This document shows positions 2,840 to 25,050 of a stretch of DNA of 39,769 bases, in pieces. Source of the DNA: Bacteroidales bacterium (GTDB lineage Bacteria; Bacteroidota; Bacteroidia; Bacteroidales; F082). Location of the stretch: positions 1 through 39,769 of the forward strand of contig JAFYNJ010000021.1 of assembly GCA_017549805.1 (NCBI GenBank), written 5' to 3'. Numbering within the stretch: position 1 is the first letter of the stretch; each line of letters begins with the position of its first letter. Made by a program: the position numbers and the translations under genes. Below the pieces are notes generated by a model. That model searched no databases and had not been told where the DNA came from. It worked only from the letters and a program-made list of their open reading frames with translations.

Positions 2840-3341
<502 letters not shown>

Positions 3342-3370
<29 letters not shown>

Positions 3371-3878
3371 CGTTGGTTTTGTTTTTTCTGAAAGAGTAGA
3401 ATTTATTGGCCAGATAGCTGAACGTCACGCAGATGATGGAGATGATTACGTAGGAGACCGTCGGCCACCAGTGGAAGACCTCCACAAAGAGTTTCAAGCC
3501 CAAGTAATTGATCAAGATGTTGACCACCGTGACGATAAGATAACGGACGATTTGCGTTCTTCCACGCAAGGTGGAGCCACTGAAGCTGATGTGGCGCGCC
3601 ATCCAGAAACCCGTGAGGAAGGTGATGGGGAACTTGAACACAAAGGCGGCGATGTGCGGCGTGAAGGCGATGAAGCCCAAGTCGAACACCTGCGCCTTGA
3701 ACACGAAATGGTAGAACACATAGTAAAGCACCCATTCCAAGGCCAGGTTCAAGCCGCCGCAACAGCCGTAACGGAACAGCTCCAGCGACATAATCTTCCT
3801 GAATGGCGGATAAAAGAAGTCGATGACCGTGGTCAAAAACTTCTCAATTCTTTTCTCTATATTTCTAATGGTTGCCAT
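3342..3878 (-). CDS. GtrA-like family membrane protein
   Basis: The 178-aa product has about four hydrophobic segments (around residues 42-58, 70-93, 110-130 and 140-160) and resembles the GtrA/DPMS family. Family-like features are [16 protein letters not shown] near the first membrane segment, [19 protein letters not shown] in the middle, and a C-terminal [12 protein letters not shown]. GtrA-like proteins are thought to help move or use polyprenyl-linked sugars during O-antigen glucosylation or cell-wall glycan assembly. That function is inferred from the family, not shown here. The gene follows mevalonate kinase by 24 nt and overlaps rfaE2 by 29 nt, which fits a role in surface glycans that depend on polyprenyl phosphate. 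Confidence 0.85.
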
Positions 3879-3879
3879 T

Positions 3880-3914
3880 TCTCAACTCTCAATTTTCACC
3901 TCTCAATTCACCCA
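3880..3914. repeat. Heptamer array between mevalonate kinase and gtrA
   Basis: A run with a 7-bp period, plus-strand consensus TCTCAAT. Four units are clear (3880-3907) and a degenerate fifth follows (3908-3914). It fills the 24-nt gap and supplies the TGA stop and last codons of the mevalonate kinase gene. Confidence 0.75.
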
Positions 3915-4790
3915 TATCAAATCATAACCATCCAAAAAAACTGTGGCTTGCTCGACGTCATCTGTGAAACCCAACACATAACCGCCGCCACCGCTACCTG
4001 AGATCTTCACGCCGAAATGGAAATCGGGGCGTTCCAAAAACAGGTCGATGCTGTTGTCGGTGACCATAGGCCGGAGGAACTTCAGCTGCCCATCGGTCAG
4101 TTGGCGCAACGATGCGAAAAAGGCCTCCTTCTCCCCTGCCACCAACGTATCAATACAATCAGAAACGCAAGGCACATACTCCGTTTGGAAAGCGTTCAGA
4201 TAGTCGGCATCCTCACGCTTGTTCCTGAAATACTGCACCAAGGGCTTGGTATTGCTCTTGATGCCCGTGTCGGCCAAAAACACATGGATATCCTTCGGCA
4301 TGAAATCCTCAGCTAACATGGTCACCCCTTCGGGACCGATACGAAAAGGCCTGTTGAGATAACACTCCAATGGGTCGATACCCGAGCTGCTGCCGTGGAA
4401 ACAGCTCTCCATGCGACCCAAGATCCGCTTGAGTTCCATCAAGTCGTCGATCTGCCTGTTGGCGTATCGCTTGAACACCGCCGCCGTCAAGGTGCCGGAG
4501 CTGCCCAGGCCATAGCCCGAAGGCACGTCGGAATCCAGATAAAGCCCTTGCTCCAAGTCGGCGTCGAAACGCTGGAAATCGAATAAACGAGACAGCTCCC
4601 CATCGTTGGCAAGGTATTCCCGGAACTTTCGGATGCTCTTGTTGGAAGCCATCTCGCCAGCCTGGTCCAAAGCAGCATTCATCCTCCACTCGGCCTTGTA
4701 TTTCCTTAAGGGAACCATCAAGGCGGTGGCGTCGAATATCATGGAATATTCGCCAAACAGGATGATTTTGCTATGGAAGGTCTCGTTCAT
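3903..4790 (-). CDS. mvk: Mevalonate kinase (GHMP family)
   Basis: Mevalonate kinase phosphorylates mevalonate to 5-phosphomevalonate with ATP, in the cytoplasm. The 295-aa product has the GHMP kinase layout. An N-terminal FHSKIILFGEYSMIF loop comes first, then the glycine-rich ATP-binding motif SGYGLGSSGTLTAAVFKRY, an ESCFHGSSSGIDPLECYL segment typical of mevalonate kinases with the Asp of the active site, and the C-terminal GHMP motif KISGSGGGGYVLGF. I start at the ATG at 4790; an in-frame TTG at 4796 would add only two residues. The gene follows diphosphomevalonate decarboxylase by 12 nt, in the same run as HMG-CoA reductase and the GYDIA-type kinase. The assignment as mevalonate rather than phosphomevalonate kinase rests on the motif pattern and context and is fairly but not completely certain. 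Confidence 0.88.
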   Translation of the reverse strand: MNETFHSKIILFGEYSMIFDATALMVPLRKYKAEWRMNAALDQAGEMASNKSIRKFREYLANDGELSRLFDFQRFDADLEQGLYLDSDVPSGYGLGSSGTLTAAVFKRYANRQIDDLMELKRILGRMESCFHGSSSGIDPLECYLNRPFRIGPEGVTMLAEDFMPKDIHVFLADTGIKSNTKPLVQYFRNKREDADYLNAFQTEYVPCVSDCIDTLVAGEKEAFFASLRQLTDGQLKFLRPMVTDNSIDLFLERPDFHFGVKISGSGGGGYVLGFTDDVEQATVFLDGYDLIWVN

Positions 4791-5831: not shown

Positions 5832-6819
5832 AGAGTTCTTGGTATTTGAAAATGATATCCAATCCTTTTGAATAAAAATATTCCTTGACTTTTTCGAAAG
5901 GCCATTCGGTGGCTGCCAGCAGGAAGTCGCCACCCCATGCGCCGAGCGACTTCAGCGAGCCCTCGAAGTCGGGATAGCGTTGTTTCACCGGCTGACGGTC
6001 GAGACAACGGCCGAGGATCGCCTCATGACCCTCTATCAAACGCTGGAATTCTTCCAATGTTGTGACACCAGGCAATGTCCTGCTAATGCCGGTGACCGCT
6101 TCAATGTCGCCGTTGAGGTCGATTTGTTGCATCCGTGCGTTGAAACCCGCCACCTCTTTCGCGGAATGCTGCTTTTGGCCTTGATAAACGAAATACAGCT
6201 GCTTTGCAAACGGGGGGTCAAAGGCAACGTGGGTTACTTGTGGCATCCCGTTGTCCAGCCGATAGAAGATGGGCGTGCTGGCTGTGGCACAGGCCACATC
6301 GTAGCCCGATCCGCCAACGGTTTTTTTCAGCAACTGATAAGGATCCACCTCCGCCCACTGGGCCAGGTTGCTGATCAGGGTGGAACTGCTGCCCAAGCCC
6401 CACGAGGGATCAAATTCGAGATGGGTTTCAAAGCAAAGCCCAGGTTTAAAAGCCTTGGGGTTGAGTTCGCGAACAGCTTTCAAGATCGTTGACAACTTCG
6501 AGGCTTTCCCTGGATCGTCAGTCTCAAGAATCTCTAGACTTTCGGGGTGAAACGTGGCTGAAAGCCAAAGGCCATCAGGTTTATAGGCGTCCCAAAGAAT
6601 GGCGTCGTTAGGCGTCATTGCGAGGCCTTTGGCCGAAGCAATCCAACCTGACCCTAACAAGGACGATTCAGGTTGGATTGCTTCGTCGCTACGCTCCTCG
6701 CAATGACGGACCGTCATGGATTGTCCCAACCGCACTGGAATAGCTAACGCCAACGCGCCCTTCAGGACGAGGTACTCGCCCGTAAGCATCAGTTTTCCGT
6801 TGGCGTTGAAGGTTTTCAT
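5818..6819 (-). CDS. GYDIA-family GHMP kinase, probable phosphomevalonate kinase, with in-frame REP insert
   Basis: The 333-aa protein is of the Bacteroidota GYDIA-family GHMP kinases. It has the N-terminus NANGKLMLTGEYLVLKGALALAIP, the ATP loop SWGLGSSSTLISNLAQW, and the name-giving segment GGSGYDVACATA (Val for Ile). Position between HMG-CoA reductase and the decarboxylase suggests it supplies the missing phosphomevalonate kinase step; that is inference from context. Residues about 38-69, beginning RHCEERSDEAIQ and ending GLAMT, are foreign. They are the exact 32-codon translation of a 96-bp REP-like palindrome at 6613-6708. The insert lies after the first beta strands, in a region likely to be a surface loop, and leaves the frame intact. 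The ATG overlaps the HMG-CoA reductase stop by 4 nt. Confidence 0.88.
   Translation of the reverse strand: MKTFNANGKLMLTGEYLVLKGALALAIPVRLGQSMTVRHCEERSDEAIQPESSLLGSGWIASAKGLAMTPNDAILWDAYKPDGLWLSATFHPESLEILETDDPGKASKLSTILKAVRELNPKAFKPGLCFETHLEFDPSWGLGSSSTLISNLAQWAEVDPYQLLKKTVGGSGYDVACATASTPIFYRLDNGMPQVTHVAFDPPFAKQLYFVYQGQKQHSAKEVAGFNARMQQIDLNGDIEAVTGISRTLPGVTTLEEFQRLIEGHEAILGRCLDRQPVKQRYPDFEGSLKSLGAWGGDFLLAATEWPFEKVKEYFYSKGLDIIFKYQELYGSK
6613..6708. repeat. 96-bp REP-like palindrome inserted in frame
   Basis: Outer arms are CGTCATTGCGAG (6613-6624) and its complement CTCGCAATGACG (6697-6708). Inner arms GAAGCAATCCAACCTGA and TCAGGTTGGATTGCTTC lie around 6635-6684. The element is the widespread repeat whose translation gives HCEERSDEAI in many unrelated bacteria. 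At exactly 96 bp it adds 32 codons without frameshift or stop. Confidence 0.92.
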
Positions 6820-8141
6820 TTGCGGAGTGAATCTAAGTATTGTTCCACAGCAGCGTAGGAGACGGTCTTGTCCTTGAAATATTCCCGAGCCTTGCGCTTG
6901 TCGTCTTCCGAGGCTTGCAGCTGGTTCAGGATGTTGTTGAGGTGCATCTTCATGTGGCCCGCCTGGATGCCTTTGGTGGTCAGGGAGCGCACAGCGGAGA
7001 AGTTGTTGGCCAAGCCCATGGTGGCCGCGATCATCATCAGCTCGGGTGCCGTGGGGTTGCCTAACAGCTCGAGCGACTTCTTGGCAAGGGGATGCAGGCT
7101 GGTGAGGCCACCCACGGTACCCATTGCCATGGGCACTTCCAACTCGAAACGGAAGATGCCGTCGGTGATGGTGACGGTGGAGAGGCTCTCGTAACGGCCA
7201 CGGCGCGAGGCGTAGGTGTGGCCTGCCGCTTCCACGGCGCGGAAGTCGTTGCCCGTGGCGATGACCACGGCGTCGATGCCGTTATAGATGCCTTTGTTAT
7301 GGGTAGTGGCGCGGTCGATGTCAATATGCGCGATATCCACCGCCTTCTTGAATTTCAGGGCATATTCGGGACCCGATAGGTGCTCGTCGATGCCATCCAA
7401 CTTGCTGACAGGACACTCCACCCAGACCTTCACGCGACAGTCGGGCGTATTGTTGGAGAGGATGGTCATGATGATCTCGCACTTGCGCAATTCCTCAGGC
7501 AGGTCAATCCGCTCAGCGAAGAAATCTTGCAAGCTATGCCCAAACTGTTCCAGCACGGTGTTGATGAAGTTGGCGCCCATGGAGTCGCAGGTGTTGAACT
7601 CGACACGGAACTGGTAATAGTCGGGAATCTTGTCGGTATAGTCGATGAGTTGGATATCAAGGATGCCGCCACCGCGTTTCTTCATGTTGGCAGTGATGCT
7701 GTCCGTATCCTTCAGCAAGCGTTCCTTGATATCGGGAAACAGCTGTTGCAGCTGGCTCAGTGTGCCCTTCCATCCGAAATGCACCTGACCCACCTTGCGG
7801 ATGTCGGGCACCTCGGCATGGAAGCCGCCGCGCTCGCCCCAGAACTTGGCCGCCGCGGAAGCCGCCGCTACCACCGAGCTCTCCTCGATGACCATGGGGA
7901 CGATATAGTTCTTCCCGTTAATCATCACATTGGGCGAGATGCCATAAGGCATGATGTAGTTGGTGATGGTGTTCTCACTGAACTCGTCGAAGAGCTTTTG
8001 CTGCTTCGTATCGCTATGCCAATAGCTCTTCAGCAAGTTGATGACCTCACCGGGATTCTCGAAATAATTGGCAATGGTCTTCAGCTTCTCTTCCTTGAGA
8101 AGTTTCGAGAAACCTTTTTTGATTCGTTGACGAGAGCCCAT
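6816..8141 (-). CDS. mvaA: Hydroxymethylglutaryl-CoA reductase, class II
   Basis: The enzyme reduces HMG-CoA to mevalonate, the committed step of the pathway (or the reverse in degradative settings). The 441-aa product fits class II: VIEESSVVAAASAAAKFW holds the catalytic Glu (residue 86 or 87), THNKGIYNGIDAV the catalytic Lys283, VVIATGNDFRAVEAAGH the Asp299, and GIQAGHMKMHL the C-terminal catalytic His396. The Lys-to-Asp and Asp-to-His spacings match the Pseudomonas mevalonii enzyme closely. Class II enzymes are often labelled degradative, but placement with two kinases and the decarboxylase indicates biosynthesis here. The start at 8141 follows the DUF2807 gene after a 27-nt gap made largely of a heptamer array. 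Confidence 0.95.
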   Translation of the reverse strand: MGSRQRIKKGFSKLLKEEKLKTIANYFENPGEVINLLKSYWHSDTKQQKLFDEFSENTITNYIMPYGISPNVMINGKNYIVPMVIEESSVVAAASAAAKFWGERGGFHAEVPDIRKVGQVHFGWKGTLSQLQQLFPDIKERLLKDTDSITANMKKRGGGILDIQLIDYTDKIPDYYQFRVEFNTCDSMGANFINTVLEQFGHSLQDFFAERIDLPEELRKCEIIMTILSNNTPDCRVKVWVECPVSKLDGIDEHLSGPEYALKFKKAVDIAHIDIDRATTHNKGIYNGIDAVVIATGNDFRAVEAAGHTYASRRGRYESLSTVTITDGIFRFELEVPMAMGTVGGLTSLHPLAKKSLELLGNPTAPELMMIAATMGLANNFSAVRSLTTKGIQAGHMKMHLNNILNQLQASEDDKRKAREYFKDKTVSYAAVEQYLDSLRK

Positions 8142-8146
8142 GGTAG

Positions 8147-8181
8147 TTTAGAGTTTAGAGTTGAGGGTTTAGAGTTTAGGG
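8147..8181. repeat. Five-heptamer array upstream of HMG-CoA reductase
   Basis: Exactly five 7-bp units of plus-strand consensus TTTAGAG; the third is the most divergent (TTGAGGG). The array sits 5 nt before the reductase start and contributes the final codons and the TAA stop of the preceding lipoprotein gene. Confidence 0.8.
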
Positions 8182-10596: not shown

Positions 10597-12358
10597 TTGT
10601 AGCTGTTGTTTTTGAACAATATTTTTTCTTCCTGATCAGCGCCATGACGACCCCCAACAGGATCACCAGCCCGATCGGCACAAGGATATTCACCATCTGC
10701 CACCTGAGCCTTTGGTTGACCTTTTTGTCGGGATCGAGCAACCTAATCTTGAACTCGCGAGAACGGATGTCGATCAAGCTCTCCCCGTCCACCAGATAGC
10801 TGATGGCGTTTTCGATGAAGGCCTTGTTGCCGTAAGTGTTGGTGGTGTATTGGTCATAGCCCAGCGGCAGGGGCTTTTGGGTTCTGACTTCAATCTGGTT
10901 GCGGATGATGTCGCCATCGGCGACGACAATCATGGAAGTGGGAACACTCTCCGCAAGGAATTGCATCTCCTCGCTTTCGGCGATTTCAGCAGTGATGCGG
11001 TTGGCATACAGCGACTGGAAAGTGCCTTTCAGCAGATAAGCCACATTCTGGCTTCTTGAGGGGAACATGCGCTTGTCGGGCGACTGACGCAACATGGCGA
11101 GGGTGATGAACACCGGGGTGCCCGAAACCTTGGTATAGTTGGATGTCTTCAGCAAGGGGGTCTTCACAATGTCGCCCTCGGAGGTGGTGGCATCGATGGA
11201 GCTGACAAAGTCGAGCTTGATGGCATTCATGTTGCGCACCATGGGATGGTTGGAAGCGGCCTGCACCAAGGGGAAATAGAACCATCGGTAAAACTCCAGC
11301 TGGGCCTGTCCCGCCACCTGACCCGTACGGATCGGCAAGGCGGCACAATTCATGTCGAGCAACAGGTTGCGATTCAAGCGAACCCCATATTTGAAGAGCA
11401 TGTCGTCAAGGTTGAGATCCTGCTCCACACCAATGGTGGATTCCTGCGAAGTCAGGCTATCCATGGTGGCAAAAACAGGCTCCACAAGCCATAACACCTT
11501 GCCGCCATGCATGATGTACTGGTCGATGAGGAACTTGTCCTTCTCGTCGAAAGGTTCTGTGGGCTTGGCAATGATGATGGCGTCGAAACTGGGATAGGCT
11601 TTGATCCGGCCTTGGGCATCCGGCTCCGTGCGATGCATGAGGGCATCCACCTTCCCGTTGATCTCCACACGGCCCACATTGTAGTTTTGCGACAGCGTCT
11701 GGGTAATATCGTAAACCTCAACTTCCGACAACTCACCGTGGCCTTCGATAAAGGCGATGTTCGGCTTCATGAAACGAGTCACCTTCTTGATGGCATCGAG
11801 CAAACGGAACTCCAAATGCTGCATCGAGGCATTCAGCGCTTCTTCGGACGATTGTCCCATCTGGCTTTCCAACAAATCGACGGCAATCTCGGTGTTGTTT
11901 CGGTAACTCACCAGCGCACCAGGCCAGATGATCATCTGCTTGGTGCTGCCGTCGGTGTTTTGATCGATCAGGTTGGTGGGGTTGAGACCCGCTTGATACA
12001 GCAGCTTGTAGCCCTCGTTGATCTCTGCGGGATCGCTACCTTCCGACGGGTTGATAAACTCGTAGTCGATGTATTTCGAATAGGCGCGGAACTCGTCGAG
12101 CATCTCCTTGGTCTCGCGGCGCAGCTTCTTGAACCCTGCGGGGAAATCGCCTTCAAGATACACCTTGAAATACACGTAGTCGTCAAGGTTTCGCAGGGTT
12201 TCCTTAGTGGTGTCAGACAGCGTATAGCGCTTCTCGCTGGTCAAGTCGAAACGGGTGAACACATACGACCCGATGATGTTGAGCACCACGATGAGCACCA
12301 CCGTGATCACAAAGGATATCAGTTGATTCTTTTTCAGATTCTTGCGTTTGTTTTCCAT
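10583..12358 (-). CDS. gldG: GldG-like ABC transporter auxiliary protein
   Basis: GldG is the large extracytoplasmic part of the GldAFG ABC system linked to gliding motility in Flavobacterium. Homologues occur in many non-gliding Bacteroidota. The product has an N-terminal membrane segment (LISFVITVVLIVVLNIIGSYVF), a long periplasmic ABC-2-associated domain (FDLTSEKRYTLSDTTKETLR, YKLLYQAGLNPTNL, FIEGHGELSE, GKVLWLVEPV) and a C-terminal membrane segment (MVNILVPIGLVILLGVVMALI). Upstream ATGs at 12376 and 12364 are possible, but I choose 12358 (591 aa) because an AGGAGGG sequence lies 7 nt before it, a rare clear Shine-Dalgarno in this window. No GldA ATPase gene is present here. Confidence 0.92.
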   Translation of the reverse strand: MENKRKNLKKNQLISFVITVVLIVVLNIIGSYVFTRFDLTSEKRYTLSDTTKETLRNLDDYVYFKVYLEGDFPAGFKKLRRETKEMLDEFRAYSKYIDYEFINPSEGSDPAEINEGYKLLYQAGLNPTNLIDQNTDGSTKQMIIWPGALVSYRNNTEIAVDLLESQMGQSSEEALNASMQHLEFRLLDAIKKVTRFMKPNIAFIEGHGELSEVEVYDITQTLSQNYNVGRVEINGKVDALMHRTEPDAQGRIKAYPSFDAIIIAKPTEPFDEKDKFLIDQYIMHGGKVLWLVEPVFATMDSLTSQESTIGVEQDLNLDDMLFKYGVRLNRNLLLDMNCAALPIRTGQVAGQAQLEFYRWFYFPLVQAASNHPMVRNMNAIKLDFVSSIDATTSEGDIVKTPLLKTSNYTKVSGTPVFITLAMLRQSPDKRMFPSRSQNVAYLLKGTFQSLYANRITAEIAESEEMQFLAESVPTSMIVVADGDIIRNQIEVRTQKPLPLGYDQYTTNTYGNKAFIENAISYLVDGESLIDIRSREFKIRLLDPDKKVNQRLRWQMVNILVPIGLVILLGVVMALIRKKKYCSKTTATNEKE

Positions 12359-22581: not shown

Positions 22582-23250
22582 ATGAAGAATAAGTTTTATG
22601 TAGTGTGGAAGGGTCACACTCCCGGTGTTTATGACAGTTGGGAAGCCTGTAAGAAAGAAGTCGAAGGCTTTGCAGGAGCCCTTTATAAAGGATTCCCCGA
22701 CAAGGCCAGCGCCGAGGCGGCCTTTGCCAAGGGATTTTCGGGATTTGGGGAAACGGAAAACGGAAAACGGAAAACGGAAAACAAACAGCTTTCCACTCTC
22801 CACTTTCCGTTTTCCGTTTTCATCGCTGTCGACGCGGCCTGTTCGGGCAACCCTGGCAAAATGGAATACCAAGGGGTGTTTGTGGACATGGGGACTCAGC
22901 CGCCCACCACGACACAGCTGTTCAAGAGTCCCGTGTTCGAGAACGGCACCAACAACATCGGGGAGTTTTTGGCCATCGTTCACGCGTTGGCATGGATGAA
23001 GCAAAAACGGGTACAATATCCCCTTTACAGCGATTCCGTCAACGCCCAGAAATGGGTGCGGGAGAAGCAATGCAAGACCAAGTTGCAACCCAACGAGAAG
23101 AACACTTATCTCTTCGAACTGATCGAGCGGGCCGAGAAATGGCTGCACGAGAACGACACCTGGATGAAGGAAAACGCCCTGGCCGTTCCTATATTAAAAT
23201 GGAAAACCGATCAATGGGGAGAAATCCCCGCGGATTTCGGAAGAAAATAA
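22582..23250 (+). CDS. rnhA: Ribonuclease H with N-terminal viroplasmin domain and in-frame repeat insert
   Basis: RNase HI cleaves RNA in RNA-DNA hybrids. The 222-aa product has an N-terminal hybrid-binding (viroplasmin) domain (KFYVVWKGHTPGVYDSWEACKKEVEGF, about 4-52) and then the catalytic domain. The metal-binding acids are Asp84 (IAVDAACSGNPG), Glu128 (NNIGEFLA), Asp151 (YSDSVNA) and Asp218 (IPADFGRK). Between the domains, residues about 57-80 ([10 protein letters not shown], then STLHFPFSVF) are encoded by a 76-bp palindromic heptamer element at 22748-22823. It has the same architecture as the one in rfaE2. The insert sits in a natural linker, so folding is probably tolerated. One unit gained or lost would separate the binding domain from the nuclease by frameshift. 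Confidence 0.94.
   Translation: MKNKFYVVWKGHTPGVYDSWEACKKEVEGFAGALYKGFPDKASAEAAFAKGFSGFGETENGKRKTENKQLSTLHFPFSVFIAVDAACSGNPGKMEYQGVFVDMGTQPPTTTQLFKSPVFENGTNNIGEFLAIVHALAWMKQKRVQYPLYSDSVNAQKWVREKQCKTKLQPNEKNTYLFELIERAEKWLHENDTWMKENALAVPILKWKTDQWGEIPADFGRK
22748..22823. repeat. 76-bp palindromic heptamer element, copy 2 (inside rnhA)
   Basis: Five 7-mers of GGAAAAC type (22748-22782, the first being GGGAAAC), a 6-nt spacer (22783-22788), then five inverted 7-mers of TTTTCCG/CTTTCCA type (22789-22823). The length, unit count and spacer size equal those of the rfaE2 copy, while the heptamers differ slightly. Confidence 0.9.
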
Positions 23251-25013: not shown

Positions 25014-25048
25014 TTAAGAATTTAGAATTCAGAAGTAAGAATTAAGAA
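25014..25048. repeat. Five-heptamer array in the aspS leader
   Basis: Exactly five 7-bp units of plus-strand consensus TTAAGAA (third unit TTCAGAA, fourth GTAAGAA). The array occupies nearly the whole predicted 5' untranslated region of aspS, between its -7 box and the ATG. Confidence 0.78.
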
Positions 25049-25050
25049 TG

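Follow-up and report, generated by a model that had tools for sequence, protein, structure and literature searches.

A convergent heptamer array pair in the rnhA linker of a Bacteroidales genome belongs to a large dispersed class of heptanucleotide arrays

The rnhA locus

The gene for ribonuclease H1 (rnhA) in a Bacteroidales genome carries, inside its reading frame, two arrays of seven-nucleotide units facing each other, which raises the question whether this is a single fixed element or an instance of something wider, and how such a structure came to be written there. The locus lies in a window (the whole stretch of DNA analyzed) of 39,769 nt, contig JAFYNJ010000021.1 of assembly GCA_017549805.1, from a source genome with an estimated contamination of 7.58%. 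The rnhA ORF (22582..23250, plus strand; 222 aa) is open in translation through the array. The left arm (22748..22782, plus strand; 35 nt) consists on the purine strand of GGGAAAC followed by four GGAAAAC units, the spacer AAACAG (22783..22788, plus strand) takes 6 nt, and the right arm (22789..22821, minus strand; 33 nt) reads as pyrimidines on the plus strand (CTTTCCA, CTCTCCA, CTTTCCG, TTTTCCG and TTTTC). The inverted heptamer arrays that the initial annotation had placed at 22748..22823 were recovered as two arrays with a total of 74 bp (35 + 6 + 33; 22748-22821), but with an imperfect right arm. For the inverted repeat, the perfect stem reported was at most 18 nt long, with 23 nt in between, while a 30-nt stem was 83% complementary. 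Folding of positions 22740-22830 as single-stranded DNA gave -20.9 kcal/mol against a mean of -10.2 for shuffled sequences (sd 2.3, n = 200; z -4.65).

In the rnhA product Pfam placed Cauli_VI at residues 4-47 and RNase_H at residues 79-182, and the array spans approximately residues 56-80, i.e., the interdomain linker. The protein would tolerate any frame-keeping sequence in this linker, and no internal stops were found in the rnhA matches. The proposal that the linker is a place where an insert does little damage thus agrees with the location of the array between the two domains and with the open frame in other species. No role in gene function is needed to explain the rnhA copy.

A second copy is present in the window inside an rfaE2-like ORF (2840..3370, minus strand; 176 aa; translation and Pfam), which is also open through its array. 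The purine arm with GGAGAAC units (3249..3286, plus strand) and the pyrimidine arm with TTTTCCG units as read on the plus strand (3293..3331, minus strand) occupy approximately residues 14-41, just ahead of the CTP_transf_like domain (48-171). The two copies do have a 6-nt spacer in common, as had been described, but they are not identical at 76 bp: the detector that gave 74 bp for the rnhA copy gave 83 bp (38 + 6 + 39; 3249-3331) for the rfaE2 copy.

Number, length and words of the arrays

Arrays were scored at lag 7 (match +1, mismatch -1.5) with score cut-offs from 9 to 14, and the array counts depend on this detector. With one detector, the window yielded six period-7 arrays and 340 kb from contig C8 (source genome) yielded 53, while the other periods from 4 to 12 gave none in the window and 0-7 in the C8 sequence. 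The arrays of the rnhA/rfaE2 type have the properties of heptanucleotide SSRs: their 7-nt units stand head to tail, they are dispersed, and period 7 is over-represented. The rnhA feature is one member of a class found throughout the genome and akin to known heptamer repeats, and not a single fixed element.

At the working cut-off, 1.57 Mb of sequence from nine species of the genus contained 262 arrays. Arrays above 60 nt were dropped from the flank and length analyses, those of 80 nt and more from the arm and gene-placement analyses, and those of 130 nt and more from the polarity and orientation tally. The lengths of the 258 arrays of up to 60 nt peaked at 30-34 nt, or about 4.6 units (median 32, quartiles 30 and 36.75), with a thin tail of longer arrays, of which the longest in the second (762 kb) sample had 117 nt. 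A broad length distribution with no preference for about five units was not observed, and the peak supports the view of the initial annotation that the arrays differ from ordinary microsatellite slippage. At G064:C71:12286-12439 the GGARAAC units number more than 20 in one run, far above the usual array length.

The words form a restricted set, mostly purine-rich and approximating GARNNNR on the purine-rich strand, e.g., GGARAAC, RAGGTGA, RAGTTGA, GAAGTCA/GAAGACA, GAATTTA, GGAGTGA, RAGATAA and GGAATGC (some rephased). The frequent ones (e.g., GAGTTGA, GAGGTGA, GAAAACG, GAATTTA, GAATGCG) lack GGG, which is carried only by rare words such as GAGGGAG and AGGGTTA. Among neighboring units differing at one base (n = 315), A/G changes at two positions were the commonest (69 and 53). 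One genome can hold five or more unrelated words, and arrays mixing neighboring words exist.

Of 99 genomes of the genus, nine contained three successive GGARAAC units, counted as overlapping hits, with 159 hits in G040, 127 in G073 and 44 in the source genome, followed by 26 (many of them from one long run), 18, 11, 4, 2 and 1. This concentration in few genomes suggests that words spread between loci. Across the order, the RAGKTKA word set reached 66 of 393 genomes and 52 of 206 genera, counts that indicate a patchy spread only, because the reversed-pattern controls were sizeable in some array-rich genomes; one array pattern search gave 276 hits against 174 control hits of the reversed pattern and serves as a rough guide. 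Samples from four other families contained heptamer arrays of other words, often of about 30 nt and up to 120 nt in G346. In another family (G341, loci L211-L216) 30-nt AGTCGAA arrays adjoin a GTGCCTCCGGGCAC-like (GTGCC-TCCG-GGCAC-like) hairpin at several places, twice with a second array on the same strand, making a composite repeat.

Convergent pairs

Neighboring arrays in the 1.57 Mb from nine species formed 43 pairs, comprising 38 RY (purine array followed by pyrimidine array), two RR, two YY and one YR pair; the classes were set with a 50% purine threshold, and the word of the sole YR pair is near 50% purine. In the first sample (804 kb), neighbors less than 60 nt apart included 13 RY, no YR and one unclassified pair, and in the second (a further 762 kb) there were 22 RY, no YR, two YY and five unclassified pairs. 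The 38 RY pairs were drawn from five of the nine species and are not all independent, because approximately five repeat a site in another species (three of them the rnhA site; flanks compared by eye). Isolated arrays numbered 201 in the tally with the 38 pairs. The RY rule is not universal: another sample, drawn from the four other families plus two additional genomes of the genus, yielded nine pairs, namely three RY, three RR, three YY and no YR, and all six same-strand pairs came from G341.

The 38 RY pairs had spacers of -3 to 49 nt and totals of 49 to 110 bp, with 56 of the 76 arms measuring 28-38 nt. In the 440-kb sample of the source genome the nine RY pairs measured 73, 65, 49, 67, 54, 68, 75, 83 and 74 bp. 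With spacers and totals varying this widely, the agreement between the rnhA and rfaE2 copies is partly a coincidence, and the narrow quantity is the length of the single arm.

The two arms of a pair carry nearly the same word: the word distance was below 0.35 in 97% of the pairs, against 33% for arms taken from other pairs of the same species, and none of 2000 permutations gave a value as low. The order of the unit variants is not mirrored between the arms over the 38 pairs (0.844 against 0.842 for shuffled units), indicating that one arm is not simply copied from the other, and arm-from-arm copying was rejected for this reason. In the sampled sequence, the arrays are about 32 nt long and use a restricted set of words, and their pairs have convergent polarity and one word in both arms.

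The arms can nevertheless interact. Between G025 and G072 (approximately 89% identical) one pair (L182 at about 11866-11937, i.e., G025:C5:51866-51937; L173 at about 4188-4266, G072:C12) has its 9-nt spacer exactly reverse-complemented, with arms of 31/32 nt in one and 52/18 nt in the other species, indicating recombination, i.e., inversion, between the arms. Exchange between arms may equalize the words within a pair, and could do so alone.

In the 45-nt 5' flank (four species) no 9-mer was common to more than two loci of a species, and this flank is poor in C, with T as the last base in 43%. Recurrent k-mers in the 3' flank came from the partner arm, apart from one additional repeat in G072.

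Placement relative to genes

The 38 RY pairs were located between convergent genes in 16 cases, inside called ORFs in 15, between tandem genes in seven, and never between divergent genes. The RY polarity also holds for the 15 pairs inside ORFs, of which three represent the rnhA site and two another common site. Isolated arrays closest to a gene 3' end directed the purine strand outward in 81 cases and the pyrimidine strand in 30, while at gene 5' ends there was no bias (18 purine against 21 pyrimidine); inside coding sequences the coding strand was purine in 29 and pyrimidine in 22. At tandem junctions, 18 of 41 purine arrays started 1-3 nt short of where the upstream stop codon ends. In total 49 of 130 arrays were placed inside called ORFs, a rough figure, since the gene calls were longest-ORF calls and some of the placements in coding sequence may be wrong.

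Orthologous sites

Arrays at orthologous sites mostly keep their place and orientation but differ in word. The rnhA loci were compared in the best 30 of the 95 matching genomes of the genus. The linker contains GGARAAC palindromes in G073 and G040, palindromes of AAGGTGA/GAGGTTA type in G072 and G025, a single pyrimidine arm in G037 and G013 and eroded forms in G015 and G082; the remaining loci (e.g., G026, G017, G048 and more distant species) had no clear array. A similar distribution was seen at the rfaE2 N-terminus, with GGARAAC in the source genome (G000), G040 and G073, an eroded form in G017, words of GAGGTGA type in G025, G072 and G037, and no array in G026. Array-less sites, such as those of G026 at rnhA and rfaE2, belong to species too distant for the junctions to be visible.

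For single arrays, 12 site clusters provided 69 species-pair comparisons, with the same orientation in 62 and the opposite in seven; among those with differing words the numbers were 26 and three. Several of the opposite cases concerned sites holding both arms in one species. In 179 site comparisons an array was detected in both species in 116 and in the query species only in 63, a division that depends on the detector cut-off.

Among 12 G025 sites examined, nine had a syntenic place in G072 and three did not. Three of the nine had the same segment length (28, 32, 33), two were slightly changed (72/79, 31/40) and four differed more, including an anchored array that had switched from CTCCTAA-type to unrelated words. 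With the length kept at just three of nine sites the arrays lack length stability, and a change of nearly one unit is seen in some. Taken as a comparison with phase variation, these two species show unit-step-like as well as larger length differences.

Origin of the arrays

The reading that we prefer, tentatively and with less than even confidence, takes the rnhA feature as one convergent pair of a large dispersed class of heptanucleotide arrays in unconstrained DNA (gene junctions and domain linkers), rewritten in place, the arrays having been formed by break healing through 3'-end addition. The most likely mechanism, as we infer it from the arrangement of the arms, is that 3' ends at breaks are extended with purine-strand heptamers and then joined. 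A break in unconstrained DNA would be healed by addition to the free 3' end. Extension of both ends before joining would leave a purine array, a short spacer and a pyrimidine array on the top strand, with a common word in both arms and an unmirrored variant order, while extension of one end would leave a single array; a later break within an array, followed by renewed addition of the current word, would give a new word at the same anchor and in the same orientation. The convergent pair fits such two-sided addition, because the purine strand is the outgoing 3' end of both flanks, and the common arm word, the lack of mirroring, the narrow length and the word change at a fixed anchor fit 3'-end addition as well. 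The purine-outward bias at gene 3' ends, the abundance of GGARAAC in a few genomes and the lack of a common 5'-flank sequence also speak in its favor. The near-constant polarity of the facing pairs hints at an unfamiliar way of making or mending DNA ends.

Several observations stand against end addition, including the absence of an outward bias at gene 5' ends, the same-strand pairs of G341, the arrays of up to 120 nt in G346, the recombination between arms and the lack of length stability between G025 and G072, and the absence of the UG26 reverse transcriptase from complete array-bearing genomes. Ku was found in none of 13 genomes, of which only five combine a completeness of 90% or more with a contamination of 5% or less; Ku-type end joining was rejected on this basis, and with Ku absent a known end-joining route is also missing, which counts against a break-joining model.

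Polymerase slippage, with a period of seven favored by the polymerase, is a serious competitor, albeit a somewhat unlikely one. According to it the units mutate and spread, recombination exchanges them, and inverted pairs arise when a purine-strand array undergoes strand switching (quasi-palindrome formation). Heptamers are over-represented in many bacteria and a cause in polymerase size has been proposed, as stated in the available part of Rehm et al. (2015; PMC4692102); the arrays mixing neighboring words, the near-one-unit changes and the inter-arm inversion between close species, the long G064 run and the 117-nt array are all in line with it. However, slippage predicts broad lengths, while the observed peak is narrow, and strand switching predicts a mirrored variant order and both polarities, neither of which was found. 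The change to unrelated words at approximately 89% identity and the recurrence of a word at many loci of only a few species would, moreover, demand spread between non-homologous loci. Slippage with exchange therefore explains the unit gains and the inversion, but not the polarity, the length peak and the wholesale word change.

A stronger form of the preferred end-addition reading would be an order-wide templated addition of heptamer runs of about 32 nt to free 3' ends at breaks, comparable to telomerase-like chromosome healing, which leaves convergent scars with a word set by a changeable template. We consider this form unlikely.

Still less probable are selected protein-binding or structural sites, whose binding specificity drifts and for which the convergent pair is the functional form. 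Tandem heptad sites of some plasmid partition proteins may offer a likeness. A bound site would fit the fixed polarity and the narrow length, the start of many tandem-junction purine arrays 1-3 nt before the stop-codon end and the lack of pairs between divergent genes, but at least five unrelated words coexist in one genome, 63 of the 179 site comparisons have the array in one species only, and 15 pairs are inside ORFs.

Production of the arrays by UG26, a genome-encoded telomerase-like reverse transcriptase related to the tandem-repeat enzyme DRT10/UG17, is very improbable. A protein of the source genome matches PADLOC RT_UG26 (E 4.5e-166) and RT_UG17 (E 4e-27), and its gene adjoins a conserved upstream stretch, possibly an RNA gene. 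RVT_1 matches were present in 9 of 13 genomes of the genus, and the commonest kind of reverse transcriptase was in the same nine genomes by alignment, the name UG26 being taken from the G000 protein only. A search with this protein matched 5 of 14 genomes (G346 weakly), but the nine without a match include G050, G062, G301, G314 and G341, which are 98-100% complete and all contain arrays, and no heptamer template was seen in the conserved upstream stretch. UG26 is thereby largely refuted as the array maker. We know of no characterized member of UG26. The gene itself is located at G000:C20:52763-53959 (locus L156), with the upstream stretch bounded by AAAGGGG and CCCCTTT and a small-protein-like reading frame also upstream.

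Finally, a transposable element of fixed length, corresponding to the defined element of the initial annotation, for which the likeness of the rnhA and rfaE2 copies in architecture and spacer speaks, is hardly credible and was rejected as a MITE/REP-like mobile palindrome, given the variable spacers, totals of 49-110 bp, the predominance of single arms, the different words at one and the same site, and the lack of a 5'-flank 9-mer common to more than two loci in four species.

Relation to known repeat systems

Heptamer repeats are known in unrelated bacteria, and no cause for them is accepted. The closest resemblance is to the GGGAATC and GGGGA(C/T)T heptamers of Xanthomonas and Nostoc (Rehm et al., 2015; PMC4692102). 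As far as the available part of that paper describes, the Xanthomonas repeats also have a purine-rich heptamer strand, short arrays with a preferred unit number (four there), close convergent pairs (70 and 75 in two genomes) of a polarity that we read as matching, a placement downstream of genes with the purines on the coding strand, and sequence and length differing at the same place between close species. The convergent pairs and the downstream placement indicate that the arrangement recurs in another phylum. According to the same part, however, the words there are related, G-rich and quadruplex-capable, in contrast to the many words found here, of which the frequent ones lack G-runs; arrays there reach 26 units, and 7-11% are intragenic, compared with 49 of 130 here by rough gene calls. 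The present analysis measured how words are replaced at orthologous sites, how far the two arms of a pair agree in word, and that their variant order is unmirrored.

The TAACTGA repeats of Beggiatoaceae, cyanobacteria and some Bacteroidetes (MacGregor, 2015; PMC4679880) are, in the available portion of that source, likewise mostly intergenic direct heptamers, occurring in Bacteroidetes too, with some neighbors having no repeats at the same junction. They differ in having one word, in standing for the most part directly ahead of start codons in the main genome, and in including one indirect repeat. Beyond these two papers no literature on the present Bacteroidales arrays was found, which is no proof of its absence.

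Mammalian interstitial telomeric sequences (PMC2246262, PMC7215372), as presented in the parts of these papers covered, are also short internal arrays, made of a telomere-like repeat, recognized against array-less orthologous loci and ascribed to the repair of double-strand breaks, but they are eukaryotic, with a known telomerase. DRT10 (UG17; PMC12632851) is a bacterial enzyme that makes short tandem repeats as cDNA from a short, changeable RNA template; unlike the present case it acts in protein-primed phage defense, and the parts of that paper covered report no chromosomal arrays.

The polarity, the common arm word and the in-place word change are constraints on any cause and make the question of how the arrays are written testable. 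If the arrays do mark healed breaks, they would constitute a readable record of breakage in these bacteria.

Other arrays and repeats in the window

Three further arrays are present in the window. One, a single array with the words AGTTTAG/AGTTGAG (8145..8179, plus strand), occupies a gene junction just upstream of the start (8141) of a minus-strand ORF (6816-8141); five other species also have arrays at this site, mostly of different words. A weaker array (3877..3908, minus strand) reads TCAACTC/TCAATTT/TCACCTC on the plus strand. The third, a single array of GAATTTA/GAATTCA/GAAGTAA (25014..25049, plus strand), has kept its word (GAATTTAGAATTCAG...) unchanged across the five other species compared, unlike many sites, and with this conservation may be functional.

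A repeat of another kind is present at 6634-6685, where two perfect inverted copies of 18 nt enclose a 16-nt loop (CGAAGCAATCC...GGATTGCTTCG); it resembles a second interspersed palindrome (GTCATTGCGAGGAGCG...GCAATCC) located in gene junctions of relatives.
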